A stretch of DNA of 64,000 nt from Spirosoma validum (lineage in GTDB: Bacteria; Bacteroidota; Bacteroidia; Cytophagales; Spirosomataceae): contig NZ_JACXAA010000004.1 in the NCBI RefSeq assembly GCF_014699035.1, forward strand, positions 310,001-374,000, given 5' to 3'. A model generated the notes under the pieces. It was not told the origin of the DNA. It made no database searches and saw only the letters and a program-made list of their open reading frames with translations. Made by a program: the position numbers and the translations under genes. Below are positions 1 to 18,431 of this stretch, one piece after another; the first letter of the stretch is position 1; each line of letters opens with the position of its first letter.

Positions 1-271
1 GTAAACCAATAACGATGGGATAAAACTGATAGCGCTGTCTTTGATCGGAGACATCAAAATTAGTGAATCGCCCCTGCCTGACCTTCCGGTAGTTTCGCCA
101 GGAAATCGGAAGGACGACACCACCCAACAATAAGCCAGAAATAATAACGGCATTCTTGAGGGGCAATTGCTGAAAGGTAACATAGCCAGTAAACAGCGAT
201 GTCGTTAAAAGCGGATGCCCAACAATGGAAACAAGTTTAGCAAACTGGATAAGCGGTGAACCCGTTTTCAT
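1..271 (-). CDS. Integral membrane protein, C-terminus cut off by window edge
   Basis: The reverse strand reads open from an ATG at 271 to the window edge, giving 90 residues starting MKTGSPLIQFAKLVSIVGHP. Two hydrophobic stretches (about residues 8-31 and 37-53) are separated by a short polar loop, and a basic patch (RNYRKVRQGRF) follows the second, so a multi-pass inner-membrane protein is likely. The opening resembles small Bacteroidota membrane proteins that begin with a phrase like FHPLL after the first helix, but I cannot name the family. The rest of the gene lies left of the window. It is codirectional with the serine-hydrolase gene to its right, 29 bases away, so the two may be cotranscribed. 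Confidence 0.6.
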   Translation of the reverse strand, partial: MKTGSPLIQFAKLVSIVGHPLLTTSLFTGYVTFQQLPLKNAVIISGLLLGGVVLPISWRNYRKVRQGRFTNFDVSDQRQRYQFYPIVIGL

Positions 272-300
272 GGTTGGGCAATGATTGAGATCGCTTTCCA

Positions 301-1476
301 CTAGTTCTTCACTGCGGCCAGTACACGTTTGATCAGTTCATTGGGACTGCCGTTATGCCATCGCCAGACAATTACAATGTCATGTTCAGGGTCAACCCAG
401 ATCGTGTTTGAACCTGCACCGATCGCGGCAAAACTGGTCGCTGGTGCGTCAGGCCAGGCTTTCTTTCCCGTTGAACTCGTACCCGTATTCAGCCACCATA
501 GATACCCATAATCGGGGCCAACTGGGCTGGGCGTGGTTGCCTGTTTCACCCAGTTCGGGGAGACAATCTGTTGATTACCCCAGCGACCCTGCCGCAGAAA
601 AAGATAGCCGAAGCGGGCTTCGTCGCGCGCATTGATCCATAAACCACCGCCCCAGCGCGTACCGCCACTTACCGACGGCATTTGTTTCCCGCCAATATCG
701 ACTACAGCGTTGGGATACGTAACGTAGCGCCAGGTATCCGATGCGCCGATCGGATTCATGATTTCGTCGCGCACTACGTCGGGTATGGGCTTTTTCCACA
801 AACGTAACAGCGACAACGCCATTCGGTTGATACGTACGTCGTTGTATTCGTAAAAAGCGCCAGGTTTCTGGAGCGTACGATGTTTGCGTTCGCCTTTGCC
901 GAAGGCTTCTTTGCCCACGAAATCACTGTTTTTGCCCCAGAGCGTTCCTTCCCATTCGCTGGTTTGGGTGAGATGGTTTTCCCACGTAATGGCGCGGTTT
1001 TGCTCCGAATCATACCCGCCATCGTGGATAAGTTTCGCAACCGGATCATGAATGTCGGGAATCATACCCCGCTCGATCGTAATTCCTGCGACTGTCGACA
1101 GTACGCTCTTCGCGACGCTGTAGGTTGGGTCGGCGCGTTGTGTGTCGCCCCATTCAGCCACGATGTAGCCATGACGAAGAACGATGCCGTTGGTAGCGGC
1201 CCGGCTGCTGGGCATTGGTCCGAGGAGTTTACCGAAGATCTCTTCCTGGGTCGAGAAATTGGGCGTCATCTGGGTAGTCTCCTGCGTTTTGGCGAACGCT
1301 ACGGCCTGGTCGAGTAATGTAGCATCCATGCCCACTTTTTCGGGTGACCGATGGGCCCAATTATCGCCTTTGGGTGGAAAATAGTTTGTTGAGGTAGCTG
1401 GCTGGCGGTGGCAGGCTGTCAGCGTAGCCAGGACTAACGTATAGAGGGTAAGTTTGCGCAGAAAAAATGGCGTCAT
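301..1476 (-). CDS. Serine hydrolase lipoprotein, class C beta-lactamase fold
   Basis: The frame is open from 1584, but I chose the ATG at 1476 because it begins a good lipoprotein signal (MTPFFLRKLTLYTLVLATLTAC) with the cysteine of the lipobox at residue 22. That makes a 391-aa envelope-anchored protein. The catalytic SxxK tetrad is visible in TYSVAKSVLS, the YxN triad in YEYNDVRINR, and a Gly-rich GGGLWINARDEARFGYLFL segment follows, all typical of the beta-lactamase / penicillin-binding-protein-like hydrolase family (Pfam Beta-lactamase). Members include esterases, D-aminopeptidases and peptidoglycan-acting enzymes. The true substrate cannot be read from sequence. It is probably not a resistance beta-lactamase. 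Family assignment is firm, function open. Confidence 0.85.
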   Translation of the reverse strand: MTPFFLRKLTLYTLVLATLTACHRQPATSTNYFPPKGDNWAHRSPEKVGMDATLLDQAVAFAKTQETTQMTPNFSTQEEIFGKLLGPMPSSRAATNGIVLRHGYIVAEWGDTQRADPTYSVAKSVLSTVAGITIERGMIPDIHDPVAKLIHDGGYDSEQNRAITWENHLTQTSEWEGTLWGKNSDFVGKEAFGKGERKHRTLQKPGAFYEYNDVRINRMALSLLRLWKKPIPDVVRDEIMNPIGASDTWRYVTYPNAVVDIGGKQMPSVSGGTRWGGGLWINARDEARFGYLFLRQGRWGNQQIVSPNWVKQATTPSPVGPDYGYLWWLNTGTSSTGKKAWPDAPATSFAAIGAGSNTIWVDPEHDIVIVWRWHNGSPNELIKRVLAAVKN

Positions 1477-1798
1477 TCGTGGTTGAGTTTGGTTTTGGAC
1501 CGCTTGCTGGTGATTGTCGATACCAGAGTCCGAAGATAAGCTGTTTTCGTAGAGAATTTGCCTGTTTCGGTCAATTGAAGGCATTTTTAGCGAAGGAGGT
1601 ATTTACTTTTAACCGAACATTAACCCCTGCTTTATCCTCTTTTCAGGTCATCTGACGACGTTTGTCGTGTCAGCAAAGAAGCCGATTCTCTGGAAAAATA
1701 AGGCCTGAGTTTTCGAAGATTCGGCTTCCCTGCTGGTACGTATATAACCTGTTACCTGAACGATGTTTCAACCGCATCACATTTCGTAAAAATCAATC

Positions 1799-3160
1799 AT
1801 GAAAGCGCTCATCCATTTTATTTCGACAAAAACAACGCTGCTCACACTCGGGCTGCTTGTCGCAGGATGGCAATCAACTTTTGCGCAAACTACAGAAGCT
1901 GAACAGCAACCTGCACCCACTGACAACCAAACCATTGTGTCGGCCATTGCTCCGTACCGCGACGATGTTCGCCGGTCGATTTTATTAGCCAGTGAACAGC
2001 CGCAGATCTTATCGGGGCTGTCCCAGCAACGCGCTACCAGTCAGCAGGCGTTCGAGACTATTATTCAACCATACGGCCAGAACAAACAGGCCTGGTTTTA
2101 TAATTTGTCACGTTACCCTGACATCTTACATGCACTGGCAACTATGCCCAAAGGCGCTGATGAGTCGTCGGTGAAGGCGTTGACCAAAAATCTGACGGCC
2201 GATCTACAGGAGTCAGCCTGGAAAGTCTATCGCCATCACTACGATGATCTGGTTCAGCTGGATAACATCAATCAACAGGCACAACAGTCGTTCGACAACC
2301 TGATTAGTTCGCTGGACGTACCGACGCAGGATGCGTTTCGCCAGTTGATCGACATGCCGGACGTATTGACTCAACTGACCGATCAGCTCGATAAAACGAC
2401 GCAGTTAGGCGAAGCATACCGGGCTAATCCAGATCAGGTGACGAAAGATCTGACGGCTTTGCACGATAGTTTGGCCGTACAAAATCAGCAGGAGCTGGCA
2501 GATTACCAACGGGAAATCAATAACGACCCGCAGGCAAAACAGGAGTTACAACAGGCAGGGCAGGCCTATGCGCAGGCAAACGGCTACAACACGGGCATTA
2601 ATCCTGATCCGGGTTGGGTCAATACGTCGTACTATTATCAAAACCCTTATCCATACTGGTTTGGGTATCCATATTGGTACACCTCCGCCCTCTGGTATCC
2701 ATCGGCCTGGTGGTATGGCACGGGTTTTTATTACGGACTTGGCGGAAATATGGTGCTGTTTGGTATGCCGTCCCTGGGCTTCTCAAACTGGTTTTTCCGA
2801 TCGGGCTACGCTACGTATCCTCACCTGTATAACCGCTTCAATACGTATTACACTCAGAATATTGGGCAACACCACATCCTGACCGCCGGAAACACAGGGT
2901 TTATGTCAGCGGCTCGGCGGGCCTTTAACCCAGCCGCCGGATCGGCTAACGCCCGCGCCAACTGGCTGACCAATCCCCGTCAATATACCCGACCCGGTAA
3001 CTGGACGAATACCGCTCGTGGCGCAACCGGTCGATATCTGGATGCCAACGCCGGCGCTTACCATACCCAATCCTGGGGCGGAGGTGCCCGTATGTCGGGC
3101 GGTAGTTTCGGTGGGGGCTTCCACGGTGGTGGTTTTCATGGTGGCGGTGGCCGACGGTAA
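1799..3160 (+). CDS. Secreted Tyr/Trp-rich protein with Gly/His-rich tail
   Basis: This is a 453-aa exported protein with a signal peptide ending in STFAQ (about residue 30). Residues 45-260 are helical and Gln/Asp-rich, with a repeating pattern suited to a helical bundle. Residues 270-330 are strikingly rich in Tyr, Trp and Pro (YYYQNPYPYWFGYPYWYTS), and the C-terminus is a low-complexity Gly/His tail (GGGFHGGGFHGGGGRR). Such tails occur in periplasmic or matrix proteins that bind metals or polymers. I do not recognise a named family. A strong intrinsic terminator follows at 3211-3241, so it is transcribed alone. Expression as a real protein is likely given its length and coherent codon use. 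Confidence 0.7.
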   Translation: MKALIHFISTKTTLLTLGLLVAGWQSTFAQTTEAEQQPAPTDNQTIVSAIAPYRDDVRRSILLASEQPQILSGLSQQRATSQQAFETIIQPYGQNKQAWFYNLSRYPDILHALATMPKGADESSVKALTKNLTADLQESAWKVYRHHYDDLVQLDNINQQAQQSFDNLISSLDVPTQDAFRQLIDMPDVLTQLTDQLDKTTQLGEAYRANPDQVTKDLTALHDSLAVQNQQELADYQREINNDPQAKQELQQAGQAYAQANGYNTGINPDPGWVNTSYYYQNPYPYWFGYPYWYTSALWYPSAWWYGTGFYYGLGGNMVLFGMPSLGFSNWFFRSGYATYPHLYNRFNTYYTQNIGQHHILTAGNTGFMSAARRAFNPAAGSANARANWLTNPRQYTRPGNWTNTARGATGRYLDANAGAYHTQSWGGGARMSGGSFGGGFHGGGFHGGGGRR

Positions 3161-3210
3161 GGATCACACTACGTTGTAAGCTTGTGTTAGCTCATTAATA
3201 GCACTGAATA

Positions 3211-3241
3211 AAAACCCCGATCTAACCAGAATCGGGGTTTT
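3211..3241 (+). terminator. Intrinsic terminator after the Tyr-rich secreted protein
   Basis: AAAACCCCGAT (3211-3221) and ATCGGGGTTTT (3231-3241) form a perfect 11-bp stem with a 9-nt loop, ending in T residues. It sits 50 bases after the stop codon at 3160 and before the response-regulator gene. Confidence 0.85.
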
Positions 3242-3308
3242 GTGTTATACTATGAGTTCAGTAAACCTTCGTTATTTTGCTGACTAAATTACATGTAGTT
3301 CATAACCC

Positions 3309-3986
3309 ATGCACATACTCATCGTTGAAGATGAAGCGTCGATTGCCGCGTTCCTGCGGAAAGGTCTGGAAGCCAGTGGATTTATGGTTCAGGTTGCTTC
3401 TGATGGACTAGCCGGACAGCGGTTGGCACTGGATTATCCATTTGATTTAATTATCGCTGATATAAACATGCCCCGGCAGAATGGCCTGGATATGGTTGAG
3501 ACGTTACGTAAGCAGGGTATTGAAACACCGATACTGATGCTAACAGCCTTTGGCACAACCCCTGACGTAGTAGCCGGCCTGGACGTAGGCGCCGACGATT
3601 ATCTGGTAAAACCTGTTCCGTTCGAGATTTTGCTGGCCCGCATCCGGGCGCTAACCCGGCGACATACGGGACACCTACAACAGGAAACGACACTAACGAT
3701 CGGAGATCTGGCTATCAATCTGGATAAACGTACTGTCCAGCGGGGTAATCGAGTGATCAATCTAACCGCGAAGGAGTTTCAACTGCTGGAGTACCTGATG
3801 CAAAATCGGGGACGCGTGGTTTCCAGAGCCGCCATCGCTGAGCAGGTCTGGGATATGCAGTACACCATGAGCAGCAACTCCATTGAAGTATACGTAGCGT
3901 TGTTACGAAAAAAAGTCGATCAGGCTGGCGAACCCCGACTGATTCATACCGTCATCGGCGAAGGCTACGTACTGCGGGAGCCGTAG
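3309..3986 (+). CDS. OmpR/PhoB-family response regulator
   Basis: This 225-aa two-domain DNA-binding response regulator has an N-terminal receiver domain (about 1-115) with acidic pocket D8, phospho-acceptor D51 (in IIADINMP), T79 and K101 (DDYLVKP). A winged-helix OmpR-type domain follows (about 125-222), ending in the usual HTVIGEGYVLREP. All key receiver residues are present, so it should be phosphorylatable. The expected partner histidine kinase is normally next door in Bacteroidota, but none follows here: the next gene is a GT39 glycosyltransferase. It is therefore an orphan regulator whose kinase is elsewhere or lost. Confidence 0.93.
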   Translation: MHILIVEDEASIAAFLRKGLEASGFMVQVASDGLAGQRLALDYPFDLIIADINMPRQNGLDMVETLRKQGIETPILMLTAFGTTPDVVAGLDVGADDYLVKPVPFEILLARIRALTRRHTGHLQQETTLTIGDLAINLDKRTVQRGNRVINLTAKEFQLLEYLMQNRGRVVSRAAIAEQVWDMQYTMSSNSIEVYVALLRKKVDQAGEPRLIHTVIGEGYVLREP

Positions 3987-4036
3987 CTTGGTACCCATGG
4001 GCTTATTGAGTTTTATCAAATACCGCCGATACTATT

Positions 4037-4070
4037 TCATTCTTGCCGGGTTAAAGCCCGGTAAGAATGA
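4037..4070 (+). terminator. Hairpin after the response regulator
   Basis: TCATTCTTGCCGGG (4037-4050) pairs with CCCGGTAAGAATGA (4057-4070) with one mismatch and a 6-nt loop. It lies 51 bases after the regulator stop. The first ATG of the downstream frame (4067) is inside the right arm, which argues for the later start at 4109. The inner CGGG-ttaaag-CCCG core resembles the nested core of the repeat at 63342-63407. Confidence 0.6.
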
Positions 4071-4108
4071 AAAATAGAAACCTGATCATTAAGTTCAACC
4101 AGGCGCTA

Positions 4109-5629
4109 ATGACCAAAAAGACAGCCATTCTGACTGGATTCGTTCTGCTTAAGTTTGTCCTGCAGTACGTATTAATCAGCCCGGAATACGACTTGCAACG
4201 GGATGAATATCTGCACCTCGACCAGGCGAACCATTTGGCCTGGGGGTATTTGTCCGTGCCGCCGGTTACGTCCTGGATTTCCTGGATCATCAAAGGGCTG
4301 GGGAATTCAGTGTTTTGGGTCAAGTTTTTTCCCGCTCTGTTTGGCGCGTTGACCATTGTCGTGGTTTGGAAAGCGATTGAGACACTGAACGGGACACTGG
4401 CTGCCCTGATTCTGGGCGCGACGGGCGTATTATTCTCGGTGTTGCTGCGACTCAACACCCTCTACCAACCCAATTCATTAGACGTTCTGTGCTGGACAGC
4501 CTTGTACTACGTCCTGATCAAGTACCTCAACTCTCGAAAAACGCAGTGGCTCTACGCCGGAGCGGTTGTATTTGCGATAGGCTTTCTGAACAAATACAAC
4601 ATCGCTTTTCTGCTGATCGGATTTGTACCGGCTCTACTGCTGACCCCGCAACGGAAACTCCTGATCAATCCCCACGTGGTAGGAGCTGGTTTGGTTGCTC
4701 TCTTACTGATCCTGCCCAATCTGTTGTGGCAATACACGAATCAGTTTCCGGTACTATTCCACATGAAAGAACTGGCCGAGAAGCAACTGGTCAATGTCGA
4801 CAGAAATGCGTTTCTGAAAGCGCAGCTGCTGTTTTTTGTCGGTTCTTTACCCGTTATCATTGCCGGGATATATGCCTTGCTGGTGTACAAGCCGTTCGAA
4901 ACGTATAAATCATTCGCCTGGGCTATCGGCCTGACACTGGGCGTTTTTCTCTACCTGAAGGCCAAAGATTATTACGCCATTGGGCTGTATCCCATCTACC
5001 TGTCGTTCGGTTCGGTGTTTGTCGCCAACCAACTGCAGACAGGCTGGAAACGGTATCTGCTACCAGCGATCATAGCCCTGCCGGTTTTGTTTTTCATTCC
5101 GATGTACCAGGTAGCGTTTCCCAACAAAAGCCCTGATTACATGGTAAGCCATCGCGCTACGTATCAGAAATTAGGGCAACTGCGTTGGGAAGACGGCAAA
5201 GACCATGCCCTGCCGCAGGACTACGCCGATATGTTGGGCTGGAGAGAATTGGCCGCTAAGGTCGATAAGGTGTATACGACCCTTCCAGGCAATACGCTGG
5301 TTCTCTGCGACAACTACGGTCAGGCGGGCGCGATCAATTTCTACACCAAACGGAGCGTCCAGGCGGTATCGTTCAATGCCGATTACCTCAACTGGTTTAA
5401 CCTCGACCAACCCTACGCGAACCTGATCCGAGTGAAAGAGGCTGAGAACCAACGTGACGAGTTGAACGAAACGAGTCCTTATTTCCGCACCTCGCTAGCG
5501 GCCGACTCCATAACCAATCCGTTTGCCCGAGAACAGGGCACCACCATTTTCCTCTTCACCGGCGCAAACGTTGACATTCGCCAACGCATTAAACACGAAA
5601 TCGACGAAGTGAATAGTCAACGCCGATAA
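4109..5629 (+). CDS. GT39-family membrane glycosyltransferase (ArnT/PMT-like)
   Basis: This multi-pass membrane glycosyltransferase uses lipid-phosphate sugars as donors. The frame is open from 4067, but that ATG sits in a hairpin arm. The ATG at 4109 starts directly before the first membrane helix (MTKKTAILTGFVLLKFVLQY) and is preferred, giving 506 aa. Just after helix 1 comes the acidic catalytic loop expected for GT39/GT83 enzymes (YDLQRDEYLHLDQANHLAWG), then PPVTSW. About nine further hydrophobic segments run to about residue 345, followed by a soluble C-terminal domain of about 160 residues. The acceptor is unknown. The last 173 bases exist a second time at 9088-9260, so a paralogue once lay downstream. 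Confidence 0.88.
   Translation: MTKKTAILTGFVLLKFVLQYVLISPEYDLQRDEYLHLDQANHLAWGYLSVPPVTSWISWIIKGLGNSVFWVKFFPALFGALTIVVVWKAIETLNGTLAALILGATGVLFSVLLRLNTLYQPNSLDVLCWTALYYVLIKYLNSRKTQWLYAGAVVFAIGFLNKYNIAFLLIGFVPALLLTPQRKLLINPHVVGAGLVALLLILPNLLWQYTNQFPVLFHMKELAEKQLVNVDRNAFLKAQLLFFVGSLPVIIAGIYALLVYKPFETYKSFAWAIGLTLGVFLYLKAKDYYAIGLYPIYLSFGSVFVANQLQTGWKRYLLPAIIALPVLFFIPMYQVAFPNKSPDYMVSHRATYQKLGQLRWEDGKDHALPQDYADMLGWRELAAKVDKVYTTLPGNTLVLCDNYGQAGAINFYTKRSVQAVSFNADYLNWFNLDQPYANLIRVKEAENQRDELNETSPYFRTSLAADSITNPFAREQGTTIFLFTGANVDIRQRIKHEIDEVNSQRR
5457..5629 (+). repeat. Direct repeat copy 1: 3' end of the GT39 gene
   Basis: These 173 bases, the last 57 codons of the GT39 gene, match 9088-9260 with no indels. 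I count 27 mismatches by eye (about 84% identity), almost all in the second half. The first 100 bases differ at only five or six positions. Confidence 0.9.
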
Positions 5630-6149
5630 AGATTTTATGTAGAAGAGACGAATTCGCTTGCCTTGGTGAGTGTCATTCGACAGAATATAAGAGCCACAAT
5701 TACCACCAATAGTTTTTTACAAGGCTTCGATATTGTATTTACGCAATTTATTACAATGTGTACGACCGTTTGTATTGTAACAAGATGGTAATACACGAAT
5801 GAAGCATTTCTCGTCTCAAGAAAGAGCGTTTATTGATGCGTGAATAAGTTTGTAAAGTTTGCCAGATCGCTCAACTATCGCCTTTGACAAAGTTTAGAAC
5901 TTTGTCAAAGATCAACCCTAAAATTTCTTTACGGATTAATTCACGGATCAATAACGAGATGACGGAAATTTCTTAAACGGGGCGTACTTCAATCTTTACA
6001 CACCCGTTTAGTTGGGCTACTCTGCCTCCTCCGAGAGGGTGCTGCCTATTGCAAGAGCGTCGGCAGTGCAGAGCAAAAATCATAATCTATTCACGCATTC
6101 AAGCCCCGCTAAATACTTCCGTGTTGAATCCCTATTGACTGGAATAACA
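5630..6149. other. Intergenic, no gene seen; small perfect hairpin inside
   Basis: These 520 AT-rich bases lie between two convergent genes. No open frame here has convincing protein character. The only ordered element is CTTTGACAAAGTT (5882-5894) facing AACTTTGTCAAAG (5898-5910), a perfect 13-bp stem with a 3-base loop and no T-run. Composition begins to drop toward the AT-rich accessory block here. Confidence 0.6.
5882..5910. repeat. Perfect 13-bp hairpin in intergenic DNA
   Basis: CTTTGACAAAGTT - tag - AACTTTGTCAAAG is a perfect inverted repeat. It is about 250 bases from either flanking gene end, so it is not an obvious terminator. Each arm contains the near-palindrome TTGACAAAGTT, so it may be a dispersed palindromic repeat or a protein-binding site. 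Confidence 0.6.
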
Positions 6150-7490
6150 TCAATTATTAGAAGTAACAAGTATCACTGTATAAATATCATCTTCGATGCG
6201 GATTCCAATTTCAATATTAAAAGATGACTGAGATCTTTTGGCAGTTTTTTTGTATATATCCACCTTATCTTCGTTTCTTGTATAAACATAGCCTTCCACA
6301 GAAAGTGAATTTTTAATTTTCTGATACCTTTCTTCCGAGTCTGTAGCAAAAACAAGAATATTTTTATGATTTAAGTAATCTTTTTTAAATCCTAAAGCTA
6401 ATTCATCATCATCACCTTCGCGCTTTAAAAATTTTATACCATCCTTCTCTCCGGCACTAGTAAAACTATTATTGGCAAGATAAGTATCGAGATCTTTTTT
6501 GTTGAAGTTGGCTATCTTTTCTAAATCAGAACAGCTTTGAGGTAATGAATTAAACATTGAAGCTGATGTACTAGTAGCCCGTATTATTTCATAATTCACA
6601 ATAAATTGACCCTCATCATCATCCGTACTGTTATCATTCACCGCCAGACTTAAATAGCCTGGTTTATGAACCGTAAGGGTATTACTGCTACCTAGAAAAG
6701 TCCAATCAGAGCCCCCAAAACGATAAATCAGCGAACCATGTTTTGCATTGGTCGTGGTACTGTAGGTAGCAAATCCCCCTATTCCATTTGGTCCACCATA
6801 ACCGGCGAACATTCCCAGCCTTACCGACCCCTCAGCTCTAATAATCACCTTATCTCCAGGTTCTAAAGAAATTCTGGTCTCAGTGGAAGTTGGAGTGACT
6901 ACCAGTGTTCCTTTGTCACTATTTATGACTGAGTTTACATACGTATTATGCGCATCAGAATCGATGTTAAGTGGATTTTTGTAGGCGATCACTGATCCAA
7001 TTTCAGCAGTTTGGGAATTATAATCATCCACATATTTTATAGTTTTCTGCTCAGTTGCGCCAGGTTTCACCCAAAATGAAGCATCTTCATACATAGTCTG
7101 ACCCGTAGTAAGACGAATTTTTCGTATGGCTTTTACCTTAGCATACTCTGAGCATGTGTTCGTAAAGACTCGATAGGAATAATAGGTTGACGGAACTTTT
7201 ACTTCCTTTCTAATTTTGTTTCCGGGTACTAAATATGGGACTCCCGACGGACTATAGTCAACAGCTGACTCTGTACGTTCTTCAACCTTTGTATACCCAG
7301 CCTCACCTCCTGTTTCGGTACGACTCGTAATGCAGGATGGGTTGTTTGTGTAGCGATCCTGTATGTGATAGACATCAAAAAGGGAGTACTGATAGGTAAG
7401 CTGAAGATCCTGGTTTTGAGCCGTTGATTGGGCTGTAAAGAAGCTAGAAATAGAAAACAGCAGAATGAGTTTGTGGATAATTAATCTCAT
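6150..7490 (-). CDS. Secreted protein with LecA (PA-IL)-like carbohydrate-binding domain
   Basis: This is a 446-aa exported protein with a signal peptide ending near TAQSTAQ (residue 25). Residues 26-190 are an uncharacterised beta-rich region with paired cysteines. Residues about 195-304 match the fold pattern of the galactose/Ca2+-binding lectin PA-IL (LecA): PGDKVIIRAEGSVRLG, then a Gly-rich loop, then KHGSLIYRFG, then a GYLSLAVNDN acidic loop and GQFIVNYEI. The LecA Ca2+/sugar loop has Asn and Asp residues at the position of our NDNSTDDDEG (285-294). Residues 310-446 are mixed helix/strand without a recognised family. Base composition is lower in GC than in the flanking core genes, consistent with later acquisition. 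It is probably cotranscribed with the small frame upstream (ATGA overlap at 7487-7490). The lectin call is by pattern recognition only. Confidence 0.72.
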   Translation of the reverse strand: MRLIIHKLILLFSISSFFTAQSTAQNQDLQLTYQYSLFDVYHIQDRYTNNPSCITSRTETGGEAGYTKVEERTESAVDYSPSGVPYLVPGNKIRKEVKVPSTYYSYRVFTNTCSEYAKVKAIRKIRLTTGQTMYEDASFWVKPGATEQKTIKYVDDYNSQTAEIGSVIAYKNPLNIDSDAHNTYVNSVINSDKGTLVVTPTSTETRISLEPGDKVIIRAEGSVRLGMFAGYGGPNGIGGFATYSTTTNAKHGSLIYRFGGSDWTFLGSSNTLTVHKPGYLSLAVNDNSTDDDEGQFIVNYEIIRATSTSASMFNSLPQSCSDLEKIANFNKKDLDTYLANNSFTSAGEKDGIKFLKREGDDDELALGFKKDYLNHKNILVFATDSEERYQKIKNSLSVEGYVYTRNEDKVDIYKKTAKRSQSSFNIEIGIRIEDDIYTVILVTSNN

Positions 7491-7687
7491 GACATGAAGA
7501 AGTTTCGTGATACGGATGGTTGTGGGACGAACCGGGTTTTTCGCTTAAAATAATGGAAAGATGTAAGGCTGCACAACTCTATACCCACCAAACTGGCGTA
7601 AGTAACGCTTGCCAAAAAATCTTTTTTATTAAAAGGGGCCAAATGCAAACCGGCCCATAAAACGCCCCAATTGAGAAGCAGATACAT
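7487..7687 (-). CDS. Small hypothetical protein overlapping the lectin-domain gene
   Basis: This 66-codon frame has a hydrophobic N-terminus (MYLLLNWGVLWAGLHLAPF) and a basic C-terminus. Its stop overlaps the ATG of the downstream lectin-domain gene by four bases (ATGA), the usual sign of translational coupling and the main reason for listing it. No family is recognised. It could also be only a leader region of the downstream gene. Confidence 0.35.
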   Translation of the reverse strand: MYLLLNWGVLWAGLHLAPFNKKDFLASVTYASLVGIELCSLTSFHYFKRKTRFVPQPSVSRNFFMS

Positions 7688-7690
7688 GAA

Positions 7691-8021
7691 TGCTCCTTCG
7701 TATCAGTTAGGAGCGTTTTTGTAAGACAGTCGTGTAGACAACATTATTGTACAGTATATCCCACTACGTAGAGGCCAAAATCCATAGCACTCTGTAAAAT
7801 CGGACGGCATAGGCCACCCTGCGCCGAAGCGTCGGAGCGCCGAAGCGGCAACTTTTACGTTTCGTTAACATTCTTTTACAGGTCGTTTATAGACGACAGG
7901 ATCGAAACTTTTAGCTTTGCTGCCCACCGCAGTGGTTGAAATCCTTGAAAATAAAAAGAAGGCCTTAAACGGATCTGATTTATCAGGAGATAGATCTATG
8001 TTAGTTGAACCGACAAAAAAC
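7691..8021. other. Divergent intergenic region with a possible Bacteroidota -7 box
   Basis: These 331 bases separate the leftward lectin operon from the rightward repeat-protein gene. TAGCTTTG at 7912-7919 fits the Bacteroidota -7 consensus TAnnTTTG. No clear -33 TTG is seen. A short direct repeat GCGCCGAAGC occurs twice (around 7822-7848). No gene is supported, although the downstream frame is open back to 7917. Confidence 0.4.
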
Positions 8022-8564
8022 ATGAAAAAAATCATTTATGCGCTGGTCTTACCGCTGGTTGTAGTAAGCGGACTCGTATTGGCTAATCGTGAAATTAACA
8101 ATGAAGCGTCTAAAAAATCAACCTCAAAACCACTCTCTGTTGCTGAAATGAAAGCCGGAAGGAAAAAATGGGAGGCTACCCCTGATGGTATAAAGTACAA
8201 AAAATGGGAAGCGTCTCCCGAAGGTAAAAAAGTGTATGCCGGTGAAGCTAAAATAAGGAAGCATATAAGTGCTTTTACCAATATGGAGGCTGTTGTAACC
8301 TCTCTTTCTCTTCCGCCAGGCTCACGATTAGGTTTCGGAGTGATGGTCAGGATTAATGGTGACGATTATATCCTTAGTTTTGGACCGGAAAAGTCTAATG
8401 AATTTCAGCAATTGCATAGCCTGAACGTTAACGACAAACTAAGTATAAGAAGCCATTGGGTATCGCACGCGCCTAAGTATTCATATCCAATCGTATCGGG
8501 CGACTATGTAGAACGAGATAGTAAACTAATTTATAAACGTCCCCCTCGCAAAGGCGGTTGCTAA
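8022..8564 (+). CDS. Small exported protein with KWEASPEG-type repeats
   Basis: The frame opens at 7917, but the ATG at 8022 begins a clean signal peptide (MKKIIYALVLPLVVVSGLVLA) and gives 180 aa. Two tandem copies of a short motif follow: KKWEATPDGIKYK and KKWEASPEGKKVY (about residues 47-72). The remaining 110 residues look like a compact beta domain containing SLSLPPGSRLGFGVMVRING and DDYILSFG. I do not know the family. The frame is intact, unlike the decayed gene just downstream. It lies in the accessory block between the two GT39 gene ends, and its function is unknown. Confidence 0.65.
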   Translation: MKKIIYALVLPLVVVSGLVLANREINNEASKKSTSKPLSVAEMKAGRKKWEATPDGIKYKKWEASPEGKKVYAGEAKIRKHISAFTNMEAVVTSLSLPPGSRLGFGVMVRINGDDYILSFGPEKSNEFQQLHSLNVNDKLSIRSHWVSHAPKYSYPIVSGDYVERDSKLIYKRPPRKGGC

Positions 8565-8571
8565 GTAAATT

Positions 8572-9088
8572 ATGAAATACGTATAGGCTTTATTCTTAAC
8601 GGTTGTTTTTTTACCTCCTGCGGACAAAACCAAACAGGAGATAAAAAATAGTATCAAGTCCGAAACCAAAGACGTATCCACTTCCAGATGGATTGACCCC
8701 AACTATGAGTATACTGATTCTATCGGTAAGAGCCTGATCGTACAAAACAGCCTCCCAAAAGGTGGAACAAAATACACTGACCCTGATGGCGAGGGATACA
8801 TTATGCTGTATGTTCCCTCGAATAATTAATGAAACAGATAACCCTTTTGAATTGACGATTGACTTTCCTTTAGATTCATTTGAGATTCAACCCAATCGCT
8901 ACGTAAAAATAATTCTTCCTTACGACACAATGACACGTGATAAAGAGGATTTGTTTGGTTATGGTCTGACAGATTTAGTCTCTTTTATAGATAATAGTAT
9001 TCATAAATCTTCTTCGTTGAAAAGAATGATTAATCCAAAAGAATCGAGTGGTTTTTATGTCGTAATGCTTTTTATCAAACCAATGTAA
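8572..9088 (+). pseudogene. Decayed lipoprotein gene, several lesions and truncated end
   Basis: Three overlapping frames together read as one lipoprotein. ATG at 8572 starts MKYV, then a TAG stop at 8584-8586, then ALFLTVVF. A shift at the T7 run (8606-8612) is needed to reach the lipobox LTSCGQNQTGDKK. A second shift at an A-run near 8642-8648 leads to NSIKSETKDVSTSRWIDPNYEY and on to YIMLYVPS. A third shift near 8815-8825 leads to RIINETDNPFELTIDFPLD, which runs to a stop at 9086-9088. At that exact point the sequence changes to the copied GT39 gene end. So one nonsense lesion, about three frameshifts and probably a lost C-terminus are present. The part from RIINET onward looks like a family of small Bacteroidota lipoproteins, but I cannot name it. 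It is clearly non-functional as it stands. Confidence 0.75.
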
Positions 9089-9260
9089 CGAGCTGAACGA
9101 AACGAGTCCTTATTTCCGCACCTCGCTAGCCGCCGACTCCATAACCAATCCATTTGCCCGAGAGCAGGGCACAACCATTTTCGTCTTCACTGGTGCCAAA
9201 ATTGATATTACCAAGCGAATCAAACACGAAATTGACGAGGTAAATAACCGGCGCATATAA
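9088..9260 (+). pseudogene. Orphan 3' end of a second GT39 glycosyltransferase gene
   Basis: These 173 bases match the last 173 bases of the GT39 gene at 5457-5629. The encoded tail (ELNETSPYFRTSLAADSITN ... IDEVNNRRI, stop) differs mainly by conservative or silent changes, which shows that it once belonged to a working paralogue under selection. Nothing of the rest of that gene remains. The fragment begins abruptly at the stop of the decayed lipoprotein gene, so this is a recombination junction. Copies 1 and 2 bracket 3.46 kb of accessory DNA in direct orientation. Confidence 0.88.
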
Positions 9261-9319
9261 AGGGTAGGTGTGCAAATATCTATAAATAGAATTTGAGAAT
9301 AATGTTACAAAACTATCTT

Positions 9320-10807
9320 TTATTTATGCACTATAGAAAAAGCAATTCTGTAACCTTTATTCCTATCAACATAGTCATATTTTATAACTGAAATAGTCTT
9401 ATTGGAAATTTTTAAATTCTTGCTTTTGCCATTTATTATCGCTTTTGTGATTGCATTTGGTAAATCGTTATCTAAAGCAGATCTGTATAAATGTTTGACG
9501 TATTCGTGAAATTTATTAACAGATAATTTCTCATCATTCTTCGAATTAATATGTAGAATTAGTTTCAATTGAATTACTATAGTGCTATTGCCAGAAACGT
9601 AATAAGCTACGTTATCAGCCATGCAATACGTTTCACTATTGTCAATTGAATCCTTGTTGAGTTCAATATACGGTGAACTGGCTTGCCACTCATCGCCATA
9701 GCATTTATTGTAAAACCCAGTCGCAATTCCACTATCTTTAAGGAAGTCTTTTGATTTATGGGGCGACCATCCTTCGTTACTATCTACATTAGGTGGGTTT
9801 TGTTCAACAAGTTTTAATTCTTTAATATTATTGATAGACTTTTTTACATCCTGCTTGGTTTTGGGTTCCTCTAGAAATAATGTATTGGTCCATCTTACTA
9901 AAGATTCTTTGTCATCTTTAAAGTTCAATAATGCCTGTTTTTTGGCATATAATAAAATATCGTCATCTTTTATAATAGACTTTATCGCAGAAAATCTTGA
10001 TTTGTAATTCATATATAGATATAGTATATAAAAGAATGGAATAAAACATAATGTAAGGATTATAGATAATGAAAATTCTTCAGCTTTTTCAACTATACTG
10101 ATACTTATTATATTTTGAATAATTTTTGATAAAGAATAATATAGCATTATTCCTGCTATAATTATAGTTACTATATTTAATAATTTTCTTACATCTTTGT
10201 ATTTTTCTTCTTTAGAGTAAAGAAGTAGGCCTCCAATAAAGAAACCTATTGCTGTGAGTAATATTTCAATAAATATGTTAAAAGTATGTTGCCCAATAAT
10301 AAATTCAATTATAGCAGAAAATGTCACTGTTTCCAATACAATTTTCTTGAAGTATTTTTTGTCTGTATTTGGCTTACTTATATTATACATAATAACTGAT
10401 CCTGTGAAAACTAACCATATTATAGCGTCTTTCCAAAGAGATTGTTTCCAGAATCCAATAAAATATAGAATTGAAATAACAATAATTAAATTCAACAACA
10501 GTAATATATATACTATTATTATATTTTTTACAAAGAAGGCATTTATAACGCTTTTTATAGAAGTTCGAACTTCACTAGAACGAAAATAGATGATACAAAA
10601 GGGGATGATTACACATATAAAAATTGCTATTTCTCTAGAGTTGAAAATTCCTATTTCTCGAAAATCTAATATTTCTATTATTGATAATTTCGATATGATT
10701 GATTGAAATAGATGTGAGAATATTATATGTAAGATAACAGCTATAACAATAAGTATTAGCTTTATTGTATCTATTTCTCGCAAATCCAGTATCTCGATTA
10801 ATGACAT
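9320..10807 (-). CDS. Orphan AT-rich membrane protein with large soluble C-terminus
   Basis: This 495-aa intact frame sits in very AT-rich DNA, visibly under one third GC and unlike everything else in the window. The first 270 residues hold about eight hydrophobic segments. The remaining 225 residues are polar, with GWSPHKSKDFLKDSGIATGF and SETYCMADNVAYYVSGNSTI as the most ordered stretches. The N-terminus carries an internal repeat: IEILDLREI (about residues 4-12) recurs as IEILDFREI (about 44-52), each before a hydrophobic helix. No known family is recognised. Composition, isolation and position beside the GT39 scar suggest recent acquisition. A membrane-anchored defence effector is one possibility, but there is no motif to prove it. 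Confidence 0.65.
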   Translation of the reverse strand: MSLIEILDLREIDTIKLILIVIAVILHIIFSHLFQSIISKLSIIEILDFREIGIFNSREIAIFICVIIPFCIIYFRSSEVRTSIKSVINAFFVKNIIIVYILLLLNLIIVISILYFIGFWKQSLWKDAIIWLVFTGSVIMYNISKPNTDKKYFKKIVLETVTFSAIIEFIIGQHTFNIFIEILLTAIGFFIGGLLLYSKEEKYKDVRKLLNIVTIIIAGIMLYYSLSKIIQNIISISIVEKAEEFSLSIILTLCFIPFFYILYLYMNYKSRFSAIKSIIKDDDILLYAKKQALLNFKDDKESLVRWTNTLFLEEPKTKQDVKKSINNIKELKLVEQNPPNVDSNEGWSPHKSKDFLKDSGIATGFYNKCYGDEWQASSPYIELNKDSIDNSETYCMADNVAYYVSGNSTIVIQLKLILHINSKNDEKLSVNKFHEYVKHLYRSALDNDLPNAITKAIINGKSKNLKISNKTISVIKYDYVDRNKGYRIAFSIVHK

Positions 10808-11052
10808 TTGGAAGCCGTAGCTAGTGTAGGTTTCTAATGCAATTTTTACATTCTAATTTAACAAATAAATGTGTTAGCTAATTATGATATATTGATGTAT
10901 GGTTATTAAAAGACTATATAAGGTCAAAAAGATAGATGTGGTCAATTTACTACGTCCCAGCTGTTCTGCTAAATTCACTTCGTGATGCTTATTACTTTTG
11001 GCGTATTGATGCGTTCATCGAATGAAGCAGACGTCAACGATAGCGATAATCC

Positions 11053-12036
11053 ATGATTGATCACGAAACAACCCGCCTTGCCCGACTGGTAGCGCTACTG
11101 ACTCTATTGCAAACCAAGCGGACGCTGACGGCCACCGAGTTAGCCCAGCGTTTTTCGGTCAGTACCCGTACCATTTACCGCGACATCCGAACCCTCGAAC
11201 AGGCGGGTGTTCCGGTAGTCACTCAGGAGGGAAAAGGCTATTCGATCATGGATGGTTATCGGTTGCCGCCGGTCATGTTTACCCGCGAAGAGGCCATCGC
11301 CCTACTCACGGCCGAAAAACTAGCCGCCGGACTAACCGACGGGCCCACCGCTCAACTCACCGGTACGGCTATGGACAAGCTGCGATCCGCGCTACGTCGC
11401 ACTGACCGGGACCACCTGGAAACGCTGTCGCCCAACATTCAGGTACTGGGGGCAGTTAGTCTGCCCGGCCGACCCAATGCTTATCAGCAATTGGTGACCG
11501 CCATTACGTCCCAACAAGTGGTGCGCCTGCTGTATAGTGCTGCCGATGCCGACGAGCCAACGTTGCGAGACGTGGAACCGATTGGGCTTTATCTGAATCA
11601 GCAATGGCACGTAGTGGCCTACTGTCGGCTGCGGCAGGCATTCCGTAATTTCCGGCTCGACCGAATCAAAAGTTTGGCAATCAGTCAGGAAACCTTTACC
11701 GCCCGGCCCGAAAGCCTGCAGCAATACTGGGCTAATGAGGCTAATCGGCGGGGTAAAGAAAAGGCCGTTATCCGCTTTCAGCCGATGGGGGTATGGGTCG
11801 AATCGGTCCAGCGGTTGCACGATACCAAACACCAGTATGGATGGGTACACGATCAAGCGCTGCCCGATGGCCAGTTGGAGATGACCTTTTTTATCGGCTC
11901 GCTGCCGTATTTAGCCGCCTGGCTACTCCCTTACGCGGGAGCCGTTACGGTGCTCGAACCGCCCGGGTTACAGCAGGAACTAGGCAAACTGGCTGAGCGG
12001 GCACATCATTTTTTTGCGACCCCAACTAGGGTATGA
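11053..12036 (+). CDS. YafY-type transcriptional regulator (HTH + WYL domain)
   Basis: This is a 327-aa regulator. Residues 8-60 form a DeoR/HTH_11 winged helix (TATELAQRFSVSTRTIYRDI). Residues about 145-225 are the WYL domain region (VRLLYSAADADEPTLRDVEPIGLYLNQQWHVVAYC), and a WCX-like C-terminal extension follows. WYL domains bind nucleotides or nucleic acid and are common in one-component regulators, including regulators of defence loci. The DUF1761 gene starts 81 bases downstream on the same strand and is the likely cotranscribed partner. The orphan membrane protein lies upstream, transcribed away. Whether this regulator controls it is open. Confidence 0.9.
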   Translation: MIDHETTRLARLVALLTLLQTKRTLTATELAQRFSVSTRTIYRDIRTLEQAGVPVVTQEGKGYSIMDGYRLPPVMFTREEAIALLTAEKLAAGLTDGPTAQLTGTAMDKLRSALRRTDRDHLETLSPNIQVLGAVSLPGRPNAYQQLVTAITSQQVVRLLYSAADADEPTLRDVEPIGLYLNQQWHVVAYCRLRQAFRNFRLDRIKSLAISQETFTARPESLQQYWANEANRRGKEKAVIRFQPMGVWVESVQRLHDTKHQYGWVHDQALPDGQLEMTFFIGSLPYLAAWLLPYAGAVTVLEPPGLQQELGKLAERAHHFFATPTRV

Positions 12037-12117
12037 CATAAGGCTGTCAGTGGGTGCCACGACCTTTGTAACGTCGAAGGACAAGCATCCTTATTTCACC
12101 AACTAAACAGTCAATCC

Positions 12118-12534
12118 ATGTTAAACGTATTGGGCAACATCAACTGGTTCAGTGTTCTGGTCGCTTTTGTTGTGTATTTTCTGCTGGGAGCCCTGTGGTA
12201 TATGCGGCTCTTTCCTCAGCTCTACAAAGTGTCGTTGGGTAAAGCAAACGAAACCCTCCAGAATCAGAGCCCTCTGTACATCGCTGGTCCCGGTTTGTGT
12301 GTGCTGGTAATCGTTGTCGCCAGTGCGATCTTACTCTATGCGCTGGGCATCGATTCGTACGGGGCTGCACTGGTGTTTGCTCTGGTCGTTGGGGTTGGGT
12401 TTCTGGTTTCGAATACGACGAACATCGCCATCAATCCCAACATACCCCGGCCGTTTCTGTACAGTTTAATTACGAGCAGCTATCACATGGTCGGTATTAC
12501 GCTGACCAGCCTCATTCTGGTCGCCATGCGTTAA
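12118..12534 (+). CDS. DUF1761 family membrane protein
   Basis: This is a 138-aa protein with four hydrophobic segments, beginning with NINWFSVLVAFVVYFLLGAL and followed by WYMRLFPQLYKVSLGK, the hallmark loop of DUF1761. Family members have no established biochemical role. It follows the WYL regulator gene by 81 bases on the same strand, an arrangement consistent with a regulator and its target. A hairpin (12540-12584) and a long inverted repeat (12667-12732) end the unit. Confidence 0.85.
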   Translation: MLNVLGNINWFSVLVAFVVYFLLGALWYMRLFPQLYKVSLGKANETLQNQSPLYIAGPGLCVLVIVVASAILLYALGIDSYGAALVFALVVGVGFLVSNTTNIAINPNIPRPFLYSLITSSYHMVGITLTSLILVAMR

Positions 12535-12539
12535 TCAAT

Positions 12540-12584
12540 AAATCCTGGTCCGATACGTCATTGTACGTAGCAGGGCCAGGGTTT
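12540..12584 (+). terminator. Hairpin directly after the DUF1761 gene
   Basis: AAATCCTGGTCC (12540-12551) pairs with GGGCCAGGGTTT (12573-12584) with two G-T type mismatches and a 21-nt loop, followed by ATTTGT. It starts six bases after the stop at 12534 and is a plausible intrinsic terminator. Confidence 0.6.
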
Positions 12585-12666
12585 ATTTGTCGTAGCCTTC
12601 TGCGATCTGTGTTATTCGTTAACGTGAATAATGGCTTACTCTAGCTGAATATAAGATCGCTGGATT

Positions 12667-12732
12667 TGTAGTGCCGACCGTCCCGGTCGGATGAGGGTAT
12701 ATACACGCCCGACCGGGACGGTCGGCACTACA
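12667..12732. repeat. Perfect 24-bp inverted repeat with nested palindrome
   Basis: TGTAGTGCCGACCGTCCCGG plus TCGG (12667-12690) is perfectly complementary to 12709-12732, with an 18-nt loop. Each arm contains its own smaller palindrome (CCGACC...GGTCGG), as in REP/BIME-like elements. It lies between the convergent DUF1761 and M28 peptidase genes and can act as a two-way terminator. The nested structure suggests a dispersed palindromic element. Confidence 0.8.
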
Positions 12733-12746
12733 GACCAATACCAACT

Positions 12747-14237
12747 CTACCGCTCCAGCTTAAAGTCGGGGTCTAGGCGTACCCGTTGCGGTCGATTCGC
12801 TACGTCCCATCCCGTCAGGTAAATCCATTTGGCAATGCGCGTTACCTTGGCGGTATTGATCCGGTCAGGTTCGTCTTTCGGGGTGTGGTAATCGGGGTGG
12901 AGCAACGTAGTGAACGCGATGGCCGGTACGTTGGCGCGGGCGTAGGGGAGGTGGTCCGAGCGGAAATACCAGCCTTCCGGATGATCGGGTTTATCCCAGA
13001 GCGTATCGAGCTTGAAATGCGCTTCCGACTGGTTCACAGCTAAGGCTGCGTTGACCAAATCCGCTGAATTGCGGTGCGGAGGTTGCTGACCCAGAATACA
13101 GGCGCTATCGGGTGCGTTACGGCCAATCATCTCGGCATTCAGCACGGCTATAATGGATTCTTTCGGTACCGTTGGTTTATCGACGTAGTAGCGCGAGCCC
13201 AGCAAACCTCGTTCTTCAGCGCCGTGAAACACAAACAAAGCCGACCGTTTCCCCGGTTGTTTGGCAAACGCCCGTCCAATAGCCATTGTCGCGACACAGC
13301 CACTGGCGTTATCATCGGCCCCATTCCAGATCGAGTCGCCAGCCACAGCGCGACGAACGCCATCATGGTCCTGGTGCGTACTGAACAACACGTATTCGTT
13401 TTTGAGAGTTGGATCGGTGCCCGGCACTTTCGCAACGATATTGACCGACGGATAATTAAAACTCTCGACGTTCACTACGTTGGTAAACTGCTGGTTAGGC
13501 TGTTTGATCCAGTCCAGTGCACTGGCGGGAAGCCAGACGGTCGGTGCCTGCGAGAACACCCGCGTATTCGCTCCGCCCGGCAGATCATAGCGTCCGCGTT
13601 CGAGGCCGGTGGTCCAGCGTTCGAAATACGATTGGGCCTCTGCATTAGACACCCAGATGACCGCCAACGCGCCCGCTTTCACCAACTCGGCAGCCCGGCG
13701 CGTCATCGTGCCGAACAAGAACCGTCGGTAACTCAATTCGGCTGGCCCTGTTCCCGAAAACTCCAGCGCCACCGCTTTGCCTTTGATATCGACTTTCGAC
13801 ATTTCCTCGGGCGTGCCTTTGCCTACGAACACGAGGGGCGCATCGACGGAAGCAATCGCCGGGGCCAGAATAAAGGCATCCTGTCCGTGCGTCAGTTGGT
13901 GCGTGCCGATGTTCAGGCGGCTGGTTTCGGTAATGCGAGTGCGCTGAATATGAAAAAACTGGAAGAACGTACCGTCGTCACCCGCAGGTTGCAGACCCAT
14001 CGCTCGTAGCTGGTCGGCAATCCAGACCGAGGCTTTTAATTCATCGAGCGATCCGCCTTCGCGTCCCCGGAAGTGATCGCCCGCCAACGCAAACAGGTCA
14101 CGTTTAATGTCGCTTTCCTGAATAGCCGACAGCGCATTCGGGGATTTTGTTACGTTACGTTGAGACTGAGCGTAACTGGTGGTCAGCAACAACGAATAAA
14201 GTAATAGAGAAGTGATGAAGGAAACGTAACGATGCAT
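12747..14237 (-). CDS. Secreted M28-family zinc aminopeptidase
   Basis: This is a 496-aa exported metallopeptidase with a signal peptide ending at TSYAQ (residue 24). A PA-like insert domain lies at about 120-260, and the M28 catalytic core at about 265-490. Zinc ligands are visible: H288 and D290 in STHQDHDG, D308 in NGADDNASG, catalytic E341 (with E342) in HGAEERGLLGSRYY, an acidic residue in NAEMIGRN (369), and a histidine in YFRSDHLPYA. The set is complete, so it should be active. The family removes N-terminal amino acids from peptides in the periplasm or outside the cell. It stands alone, leftward, and ends at the inverted repeat 12667-12732. Confidence 0.92.
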   Translation of the reverse strand: MHRYVSFITSLLLYSLLLTTSYAQSQRNVTKSPNALSAIQESDIKRDLFALAGDHFRGREGGSLDELKASVWIADQLRAMGLQPAGDDGTFFQFFHIQRTRITETSRLNIGTHQLTHGQDAFILAPAIASVDAPLVFVGKGTPEEMSKVDIKGKAVALEFSGTGPAELSYRRFLFGTMTRRAAELVKAGALAVIWVSNAEAQSYFERWTTGLERGRYDLPGGANTRVFSQAPTVWLPASALDWIKQPNQQFTNVVNVESFNYPSVNIVAKVPGTDPTLKNEYVLFSTHQDHDGVRRAVAGDSIWNGADDNASGCVATMAIGRAFAKQPGKRSALFVFHGAEERGLLGSRYYVDKPTVPKESIIAVLNAEMIGRNAPDSACILGQQPPHRNSADLVNAALAVNQSEAHFKLDTLWDKPDHPEGWYFRSDHLPYARANVPAIAFTTLLHPDYHTPKDEPDRINTAKVTRIAKWIYLTGWDVANRPQRVRLDPDFKLER

Positions 14238-14278
14238 GATGAGTAGGGTTAACTTGAATACGATGACTGAAATAGTTA

Positions 14279-14635
14279 TTAAGCGCGCTCTAGGATGAAA
14301 TTTCCGTCGATGCCTAATTTTTCGTGCAGTCGTTTTGCGAGGTCAAGGGTTATACGCCGTTTTCCATTCAAAACTTCAGAAACACGCGAGGTTTCGACGC
14401 CTAGTAATTGGGCCAGATCTTTTTGTTTTAGTTTCATCTCATACATTTTCCACTCAATCATGCCCGTCAGCGTTGTGGGTTTGGGAAAACTCATAGTAGT
14501 TTGTTCATAGCGCTGAAGCGCTTCTGCCAACGTGCGGGCCTGATTTTGTAGTTGTGAATCGTCGCCCATCCGAGCAAGGAGGGCATCAAAATCGGCAAAC
14601 GCCTGTTTGTAATCGGCTTCGTTCAGAATGGTCAT
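14279..14635 (-). CDS. higA: HigA-type antitoxin, XRE-family DNA-binding protein
   Basis: This is a 118-aa protein. The N-terminal half (1-55) is helical, and a helix-turn-helix of the XRE type lies at about 60-112 (MKLKQKDLAQLLGVETSRVS, then KRRITLDLAKRLHEKLGID). It follows the HigB-like toxin gene with a four-base ATGA overlap (14632-14635), the usual toxin-first order of HigBA modules. It should neutralise the toxin and repress the shared promoter. The gene symbol is by family resemblance. Confidence 0.85.
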   Translation of the reverse strand: MTILNEADYKQAFADFDALLARMGDDSQLQNQARTLAEALQRYEQTTMSFPKPTTLTGMIEWKMYEMKLKQKDLAQLLGVETSRVSEVLNGKRRITLDLAKRLHEKLGIDGNFILERA

Positions 14636-14937
14636 GGTTTGTACTCGATTAGCTTAGCGTCAATTTTATCGTAATCGGCATGGGTGCCAATAAATTTGAT
14701 ATAAACAGTTCGGATACTAAATAAAATGGCAACGATTAGTCGATATCGATTTCCTCGTATATTGAAAACAAACCGCTCATTGCCGACGTAGTCAACAGAG
14801 TTAAACTGAGCACGAACACCATTTATATTCGACCAATCGGCTTCGGCAACTGTATCGTACCACTCCATTAGAGCTATAGTAGCATCAGGATGCGTTTCTG
14901 CAAACCGAATCAGTGTAGCTTTTGCAATTATTACCAT
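14632..14937 (-). CDS. higB: HigB-type mRNA interferase toxin
   Basis: The frame is open from 15000, but the ATG at 14937 gives the standard length of 101 aa and the usual start (MVIIAKATLIRFAETHPDA). The RelE/HigB core is visible: WYDTVAEADWSNINGVRAQF, SVDYVGNERFVFNIRGNRYR, and the closing VYIKFIGTHADYDKID. Family members cleave mRNA at the ribosome. It overlaps the antitoxin start by four bases. An intact pair is expected to be a functional toxin-antitoxin module, although activity cannot be judged from sequence. Confidence 0.87.
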   Translation of the reverse strand: MVIIAKATLIRFAETHPDATIALMEWYDTVAEADWSNINGVRAQFNSVDYVGNERFVFNIRGNRYRLIVAILFSIRTVYIKFIGTHADYDKIDAKLIEYKP

Positions 14938-14988
14938 AACGTAATCCTGACTAAGAAATTCCAGATTTGGGAATTTATTTCTATTTAT

Positions 14989-15344
14989 ATGAGAAAGCAT
15001 AGCTTTATCTTCACTTTATACGTGACTTTTTTCGTTAGTCACCTCCTCGTTGCACAGACAAAGAAAACCACAACCGACCCCGCTGCCCGATATGATATGT
15101 ATGTGTAACAGGCCGTTCGGGGCCAACTAGTACTATTGTGAAGGATGGGCAAGTACTTTATACCGGTAAACTCGACCACTGGCATTATAGTACGTTCCAA
15201 CTAAGCAATAACCAGTTCAGGTAGGGGTACGATGCCGTTAGTTTTGTGCTCAATACGCAGGGGGAAATTGCTGCGCTACGTTTCCTTGGTGGCCAACTGG
15301 TGAAAGCATCGGAAGGAACGGGCAAAAACAGGTCGTTTCAATAA
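14989..15344 (+). pseudogene. Remnant of a secreted serine hydrolase (signal peptide and DUF3471-like tail)
   Basis: An ATG at 14989 starts an excellent signal peptide (MRKHSFIFTLYVTFFVSHLL, then VAQTKK) that stops after 39 codons at 15106-15108. Downstream, shifted frames read YTGKLDHWHYSTFQLSNNQF (about 15160-15221), then after a TAG stop GYDAVSFVLNTQGEIAALRF and on to a stop at 15342-15344. That tail resembles the C-terminal DUF3471 domain of beta-lactamase-fold hydrolases, which carries LEHWHYDTF-type sequence. The whole catalytic domain is missing. It is a deletion remnant, divergent from the toxin-antitoxin pair and just before the ChrB-AraC gene. Confidence 0.65.
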
Positions 15345-15364
15345 ACAGTTTATTCTCTATTCTA

Positions 15365-16222: not shown

Positions 16223-16282
16223 ATACGTTCTATTTTGTGCTCATCAGGGGGCTTAATCTTGTGGTAAAATCCATAAGAAGTC

Positions 16283-16819: not shown

Positions 16820-16833
16820 CGTGAGTTGAAAAG

Positions 16834-18204: not shown

Positions 18205-18431
18205 ACGTAACGGAAAAACGTACTGAATGCCTCTTTCTACTTACGCTTTTGTCCAGATGAACTGGTATATAGAATGATGAACTGTACTGATTATGCTGAT
18301 TGTGGTGTCGGTTACTTTTAACCGGCACAGTGAAGTTTCCAAAATCGATCGACACGGCATTGACCAACTGGTTGCAATCGAGTGAATTTTGCTGTATACT
18401 GTGACAGTACTCTTTAATCAACCTGAAACAT

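Follow-up and report, generated by a model that had tools for sequence, protein, structure and literature searches.

A repeated GT39 gene end joined to a truncated lipoprotein gene in Spirosoma validum: probable remnant of a second GT39 gene

A repeated gene end around a block of low GC content is a usual hallmark of integrative elements. Such a repeat is found in a 64,000-nucleotide stretch of the Spirosoma validum genome (contig NZ_JACXAA010000004.1, positions 310,001 to 374,000; hereafter the window), in which the end of a GT39 gene recurs beyond a block of accessory genes. The initial annotation of this locus offered two readings: a tandem GT39 paralogue mostly deleted and fused to a truncated gene, or an element that had inserted in the 3' end of the gene and brought a replacement end, which would make the locus an attachment-like site. 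We therefore asked how the second gene end came to lie where it does.

The repeat and the accessory island around it

The repeat was present as annotated: positions 5457-5629 and 9088-9260 are identical at 146 of 173 bases (84.4%), in direct orientation and without gaps. A repeat search stretched the copies to 5447-5631 and 9078-9262, and the identical core comprises 37 bases (5463-5499). When the same 173-base sequence was slid ungapped across the window, the mean was 43 matches (standard deviation, 5.9) and the top unrelated position scored only 70. The repeat is therefore not a product of chance, which the initial annotation had also dismissed. Lower GC content between the copies was likewise borne out (39% for 5630-9087, versus 51% for the GT39 gene and 48% for the window), and the AT-rich stretch goes on past the second copy, with 28% GC over 9261-11052. 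Across all 39 contigs of the genome (8.2 Mb), the GT39 protein matched exactly two places at an E value of 0.001, namely the complete gene and, with residues 460-519, the second copy. The latter had been annotated as an isolated gene end with its stop codon. The features of the locus are as follows.

3987-12746, no strand: accessory island flanked by genes for a response regulator (3309-3986) and an M28 peptidase (12747-14237, minus strand); delimited by seven of seven relatives
4067-5629, plus strand: intact GT39/PMT_2 gene with tail copy 1; Pfam PMT_2 match (E value, 8e-24), best relatives 61-71% identical
5447-5629, plus strand: tail copy 1 of the repeat; pairwise comparison, repeat search and codon analysis
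6150-7490, minus strand: gene for a 446-residue protein of unknown family; 62% identical relative in another genus (G173), 61% identity over 288 residues in G012
8022-8564, plus strand: widespread accessory gene; its 180-residue product contains a short WEA(T/S)P(D/E)G repeat twice; present in 66 of 222 genomes of the family, counting that of the window
8578-9088 (start approximate), plus strand: decayed, frame-broken lipoprotein-like gene truncated at the junction; open frame beyond the junction in 7 of 11 loci, DNA homology to G004 stopping at 9083
9078-9260, plus strand: tail copy 2, probable orphan 3' end of a second GT39 gene including its stop codon; pairwise comparison, protein search, tail tree and codon analysis
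9079-9083, plus strand: putative junction microhomology ACCAA, common to the lipoprotein and GT39 sides; overlap of the two homologies
9320-10807, minus strand: AT-rich gene for a 495-residue protein of unknown family, its first half hydrophobic by eye; open reading frame, composition and profile searches
11053-12534, plus strand: gene for a WYL-domain regulator and DUF1761 gene; side by side in three of the five other loci fetched from the genus

A close orthologue of the response regulator (77-80% amino acid identity) was found in 7 of 35 other genomes of the genus, the best listed match in the others being at most 55% identical. All seven carry an M28 peptidase orthologue 109-402 bp after the response regulator, and none has a GT39 match. 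These seven empty loci indicate that 3987-12746, with the GT39 gene, was either inserted in the lineage of the window or lost in the others. The variable segment thus takes in the GT39 gene itself, which the initial annotation had not considered; the empty site that it proposed to look for, lacking just 5630-9260, was not found in the relatives compared, nor was a GT39 gene with the same neighbours among the loci compared.

Hairpin-forming repeats are located at the island edges and behind the GT39 gene (4035-4072, 5882-5914 and 12667-12732). The one at the left edge is present also in the empty locus of G033, the right edge carries a perfect 24-base hairpin with partial copies elsewhere in the genome, and the repeats at 5882-5914 and 12667-12732 recur partly across the genome. 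No tRNA was detected in the window, and no Rfam match in 3000-16000. Beyond the island, 14279-15000 encodes a HigB-like toxin and a helix-turn-helix antitoxin that match PADLOC PD-Lambda-2 A and B, and 15365-16222 contains a single gene in which a ChrB C-terminal domain is joined to an AraC-type helix-turn-helix domain.

The pieces of the island differ in their distributions, as expected for a mosaic. The gene at 6150 has matches in 19 of 222 genomes, mostly partial; its sole near-full relative is that in G173, with which DNA homology extends across 6205-7661. The gene at 9320 has matches in 10 of 222 genomes, the best being 29% identical apart from the window itself, and its protein has no match in Pfam, NCBIfam, PHROGs or PADLOC. 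The WYL regulator occurs in nine other genomes of the genus at 68-78% identity. The island is a mosaic and accessory, and the block has no evident function as a unit. The "lectin" label applied within it found no support in Pfam, NCBIfam or PHROGs.

The gene at 8022 has no match in plasmids or in viral contigs. Together with its upstream leader (7697-8574), it recurs in all eight neighbourhoods fetched, in surroundings that are mostly unrelated, a single pair (L171 and L174) having a long stretch in common elsewhere. The gene and leader are 82-90% identical to the window at the DNA level, with a value of 84% in a Chitinophaga. The main match begins at 7848-7852 in seven of the eight, and the window seems to hold extra GC-rich bases at about 7800-7847. 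Judged from these sequences, it appears to move freely as a single gene, with no recombinase of its own. One perfect inverted repeat of 16 bases, possibly due to chance, lies within the GT39 gene (4830-4845) and just before the gene at 8022 (8007-8022).

The two tails and the cut lipoprotein gene

The putative assignment to GT39 fits the Pfam PMT_2 match. Given that many relatives align from about residue 10-15, the true start of the gene may be an inner ATG.

Among the 56 coding codons compared between the tails, 22 are changed, 14 of them synonymously and 8 with replacement. The synonymous share is higher than the approximately 29% expected for random change without selection (p = 0.0007); inclusion of the two codons just left of 5459, which adjoin the junction and both carry replacements, gives 14 of 24 (p = 0.002). 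Copy 2 has no stop and no frame damage. The synonymous bias indicates that the tails diverged mostly within working genes, of which both ends were part for much of their separate history, and that copy 2 was cut off later. A tree of 98 tails groups the pair as sisters (support, 0.945) distant from all others, which places the second gene in the same GT39 lineage. Copy 2 retains the family-common residues IFVF and AK that are changed in copy 1, and the opposite applies at DIR. Sister tails would also result if the GT39 end of the window had been duplicated recently; however, a divergence of 16% with this synonymous bias and an intact frame is a misfit for a recent non-functional copy, and we give such an origin next to no credence.

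The differences are unevenly spread. Counted from 5457, 6 mismatches fall in the first 103 bases and 21 in the following 70 (permutation test of the step, 0.001). The first 33 codons contain five synonymous changes and one replacement, compared with nine and seven in the last 23. With the boundary chosen from the data, the contrast across the step has a p value of 0.006 for replacements and also for synonymous changes at unchanged residues (5 of 32 versus 9 of 16). The step is due in part to weaker constraint on the C-terminus, and in part perhaps to an old edge of recombination or gene conversion. Better conservation of the amino acid tail, as annotated, was borne out in the first 33 codons; the last 23 do not show it.

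On the far side, the 94-residue stretch upstream of the orphan end (8804-9085) has matches in 15 of 222 genomes of the family, counting that of the window. Eleven of 12 fetched loci were examined, one of them (L133) being the window itself. In 7 of the 11, the open frame extends 35-52 residues beyond the junction; in these seven (L135 to L141) it continues for 40-57 residues past a conserved FYVVML-like segment, whereas the window gene ends five residues past it. Stops are present in the G004 locus (L134) and in L142; for L143 there was no match at the threshold applied. The DNA of G004 is 87% identical to the window over 7850-9083, the homology ending at 9083, and its own lipoprotein remnant continues beyond the corresponding point. 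Given the longer frame in relatives and this break, the orphan GT39 end is spliced onto a cut gene. Given also that the window gene is frame-broken and the G004 copy contains stops, the lipoprotein gene was decaying anyway. It had been annotated as decayed, correctly, and is in addition truncated at the junction.

The GT39 match of the orphan begins at 9078, and the homology to G004 ends at 9083, so that five bases, ACCAA, are common to both sides. This overlap suggests illegitimate joining, with the proviso that five bases can occur by chance.

Origin of the second tail

We consider it probable that 9078-9260 is what survives of a second, diverged GT39 gene, namely its 3' end, fused at a microhomology to the cut lipoprotein gene. 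The island would once have held this gene downstream of the pair formed by the gene at 8022 and the lipoprotein gene, and selection would have acted on it for much of the time since the two GT39 genes diverged. Illegitimate joining at ACCAA would then have fused the last 60 GT39 codons to approximately the first four-fifths of the lipoprotein gene, with the remainder of both genes being removed in the same event. We infer that the junction arose through one deletion and that the second GT39 gene was located slightly farther downstream.

Three traits of such a remnant were looked for and found: a fragment derived from a once functional gene, a breakpoint that cuts a neighbouring gene, and a short microhomology at the junction. 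The sister relation of the tails and the intact frame of copy 2 also count in favour of the remnant, as does the occurrence elsewhere of the gene at 8022 beside all or part of the lipoprotein gene, away from GT39: G004, G005 and G018 are without any GT39 match, and in G151 the GT39 gene lies about 450 kb from the pair on the same contig.

Broken second GT39 copies in other genomes (G177, a Chitinophagales MAG and possibly G029) also count for this origin. GT39 matches were present in 94 of 222 family genomes, with a single copy as the usual state (the best 80 of 409 relatives were taken in one search). One genome (G177) contains pieces of a degenerate second GT39 gene far from its intact one. 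In another (G029; 71% complete, 870 contigs, 4% contamination), one GT39 gene is nearly full, and two additional pieces, on contigs other than that of the gene and unplaced in this fragmented assembly, may be a second copy; in three genomes (G114, G118 and G209) a single gene is split. Comparison of 99 further GT39 loci with themselves (mean total flank of 14.8 kb, about 3 kb for most search-derived loci; some genomes included twice) revealed one large GT39 fragment, in the Chitinophagales MAG locus L034. There, approximately 1 kb beyond an intact gene (1737-3260), lies a cut GT39 fragment (4227-4446) that is a 5' end rather than a 3' end and about 86% identical over 210-220 bases. A short copy of the 3' border of this GT39 gene also precedes the intact gene (1475-1522). 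The smaller matches (20-54 bp in L031, L037, L051, L066, L069, L083 and L118; 41 bp in L034) were rejected as short or dispersed repeats. Plasmids yielded just six GT39 records, all remote (<29% identity).

Several observations count against the remnant. An ancestor with both complete genes, the presumed state before the deletion, was not seen among the 222 family genomes, G029 having the unplaced pieces mentioned above. The step at base 103 is unexpected for a plain tandem pair without gene conversion or recombination. Both codons adjacent to the junction are replaced, and the overlap of five bases may be fortuitous. Of the first reading in the initial annotation, the fusion of a leftover GT39 end to a truncated gene is upheld by the cut lipoprotein gene, the overlap and the synonymous bias, but the tandem arrangement is not: neither two intact GT39 genes close together, which it had proposed to look for in relatives, nor another orphan GT39 tail was shown among the 222 genomes.

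The step and the usual single copy would both be accommodated if the last 180 bases of the resident GT39 gene had been the site of pairing with DNA of a related strain. A crossover there would have left the step at base 103 and brought in the block together with a foreign end for the gene (copy 1 from about 5560 onwards), and the incoming DNA would have joined illegitimately at ACCAA on its far side, with the resident end left behind as copy 2; no tandem pair is needed. However, with six differences before the step (five synonymous, one replacement), the sequence there would not have been identical when any recent crossover took place, and weaker constraint on the C-terminal protein sequence already accounts for part of the step. 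Longer inserts arise by homology-facilitated illegitimate recombination. The portion of PMC6382021 drawn on here describes this process in transformable bacteria; a microhomology junction fits it, although the integrated segments described there are of 3-10 bases, not kilobases. We regard capture of this kind as unlikely, without setting it aside. It is one route to a remnant, so that the two explanations overlap. We are similarly doubtful of the proposition that accessory genes were captured at the GT39 3' end without an integrase, the gene keeping a complete foreign end and its displaced end lying behind the block.

The second reading in the initial annotation, in which an integrative element entered the GT39 3' end, supplied a replacement end and later lost its recombinase, would make 5457-5629 and 9088-9260 att-like. 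The repeat does reach the stop codon, and the identical core is followed by divergence as in replacement ends. Integrative elements are often located in gene 3' ends with short repeats, those of IMEs measuring 8-60 bp according to the part of PMC5704250 cited here. However, no recombinase was detected by Pfam scan among 17 open reading frames of at least 90 residues in 1-19958, and the nearest tyrosine integrase (PF00589) on the contig, at C34:503916, is over 180 kb away, consistent with the annotation's own remark that no integrase was seen. Five island proteins have no match in PHROGs. An empty site with an intact target gene was also not found among the relatives compared, the GT39 gene itself being absent from the seven empty loci. 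By a criterion of our own, an element end should not cut a gene of the element, and here the right junction falls within a lipoprotein gene of which relatives have the full length. An attachment-like site is therefore highly improbable.

Comparison with known systems

The scar at this locus is real, clearly readable and of an ordinary kind; it is not a new type of mobile element. A repeated gene end around a low-GC block can also stem from gene loss at a microhomology, and whether the gene beside the far repeat is cut helps to tell such loss from an integrative element. Capture of a related allele, if true, would be a natural example of islands that grow through transformation without a recombinase.

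The locus resembles ICE/IME-type elements in the 3' ends of protein genes in its direct repeat, which reaches the stop codon and includes 37 identical bases in a row, but differs from them in that no recombinase was found, one end lies in a truncated gene and no matching empty site was detected. Homology-facilitated illegitimate recombination during natural transformation could yield the layout from one homologous anchor and one microhomology junction; here, however, the anchor region is not near-identical. Gene remnants left by illegitimate, microhomology-mediated deletion in bacterial accessory islands share with this locus the cut end, the cut neighbour, the short overlap and the mosaic low-GC surroundings. 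The present case differs from them in having an accessory gene as the parent and an intact, diverged copy at a distance of 3.6 kb on the upstream side.
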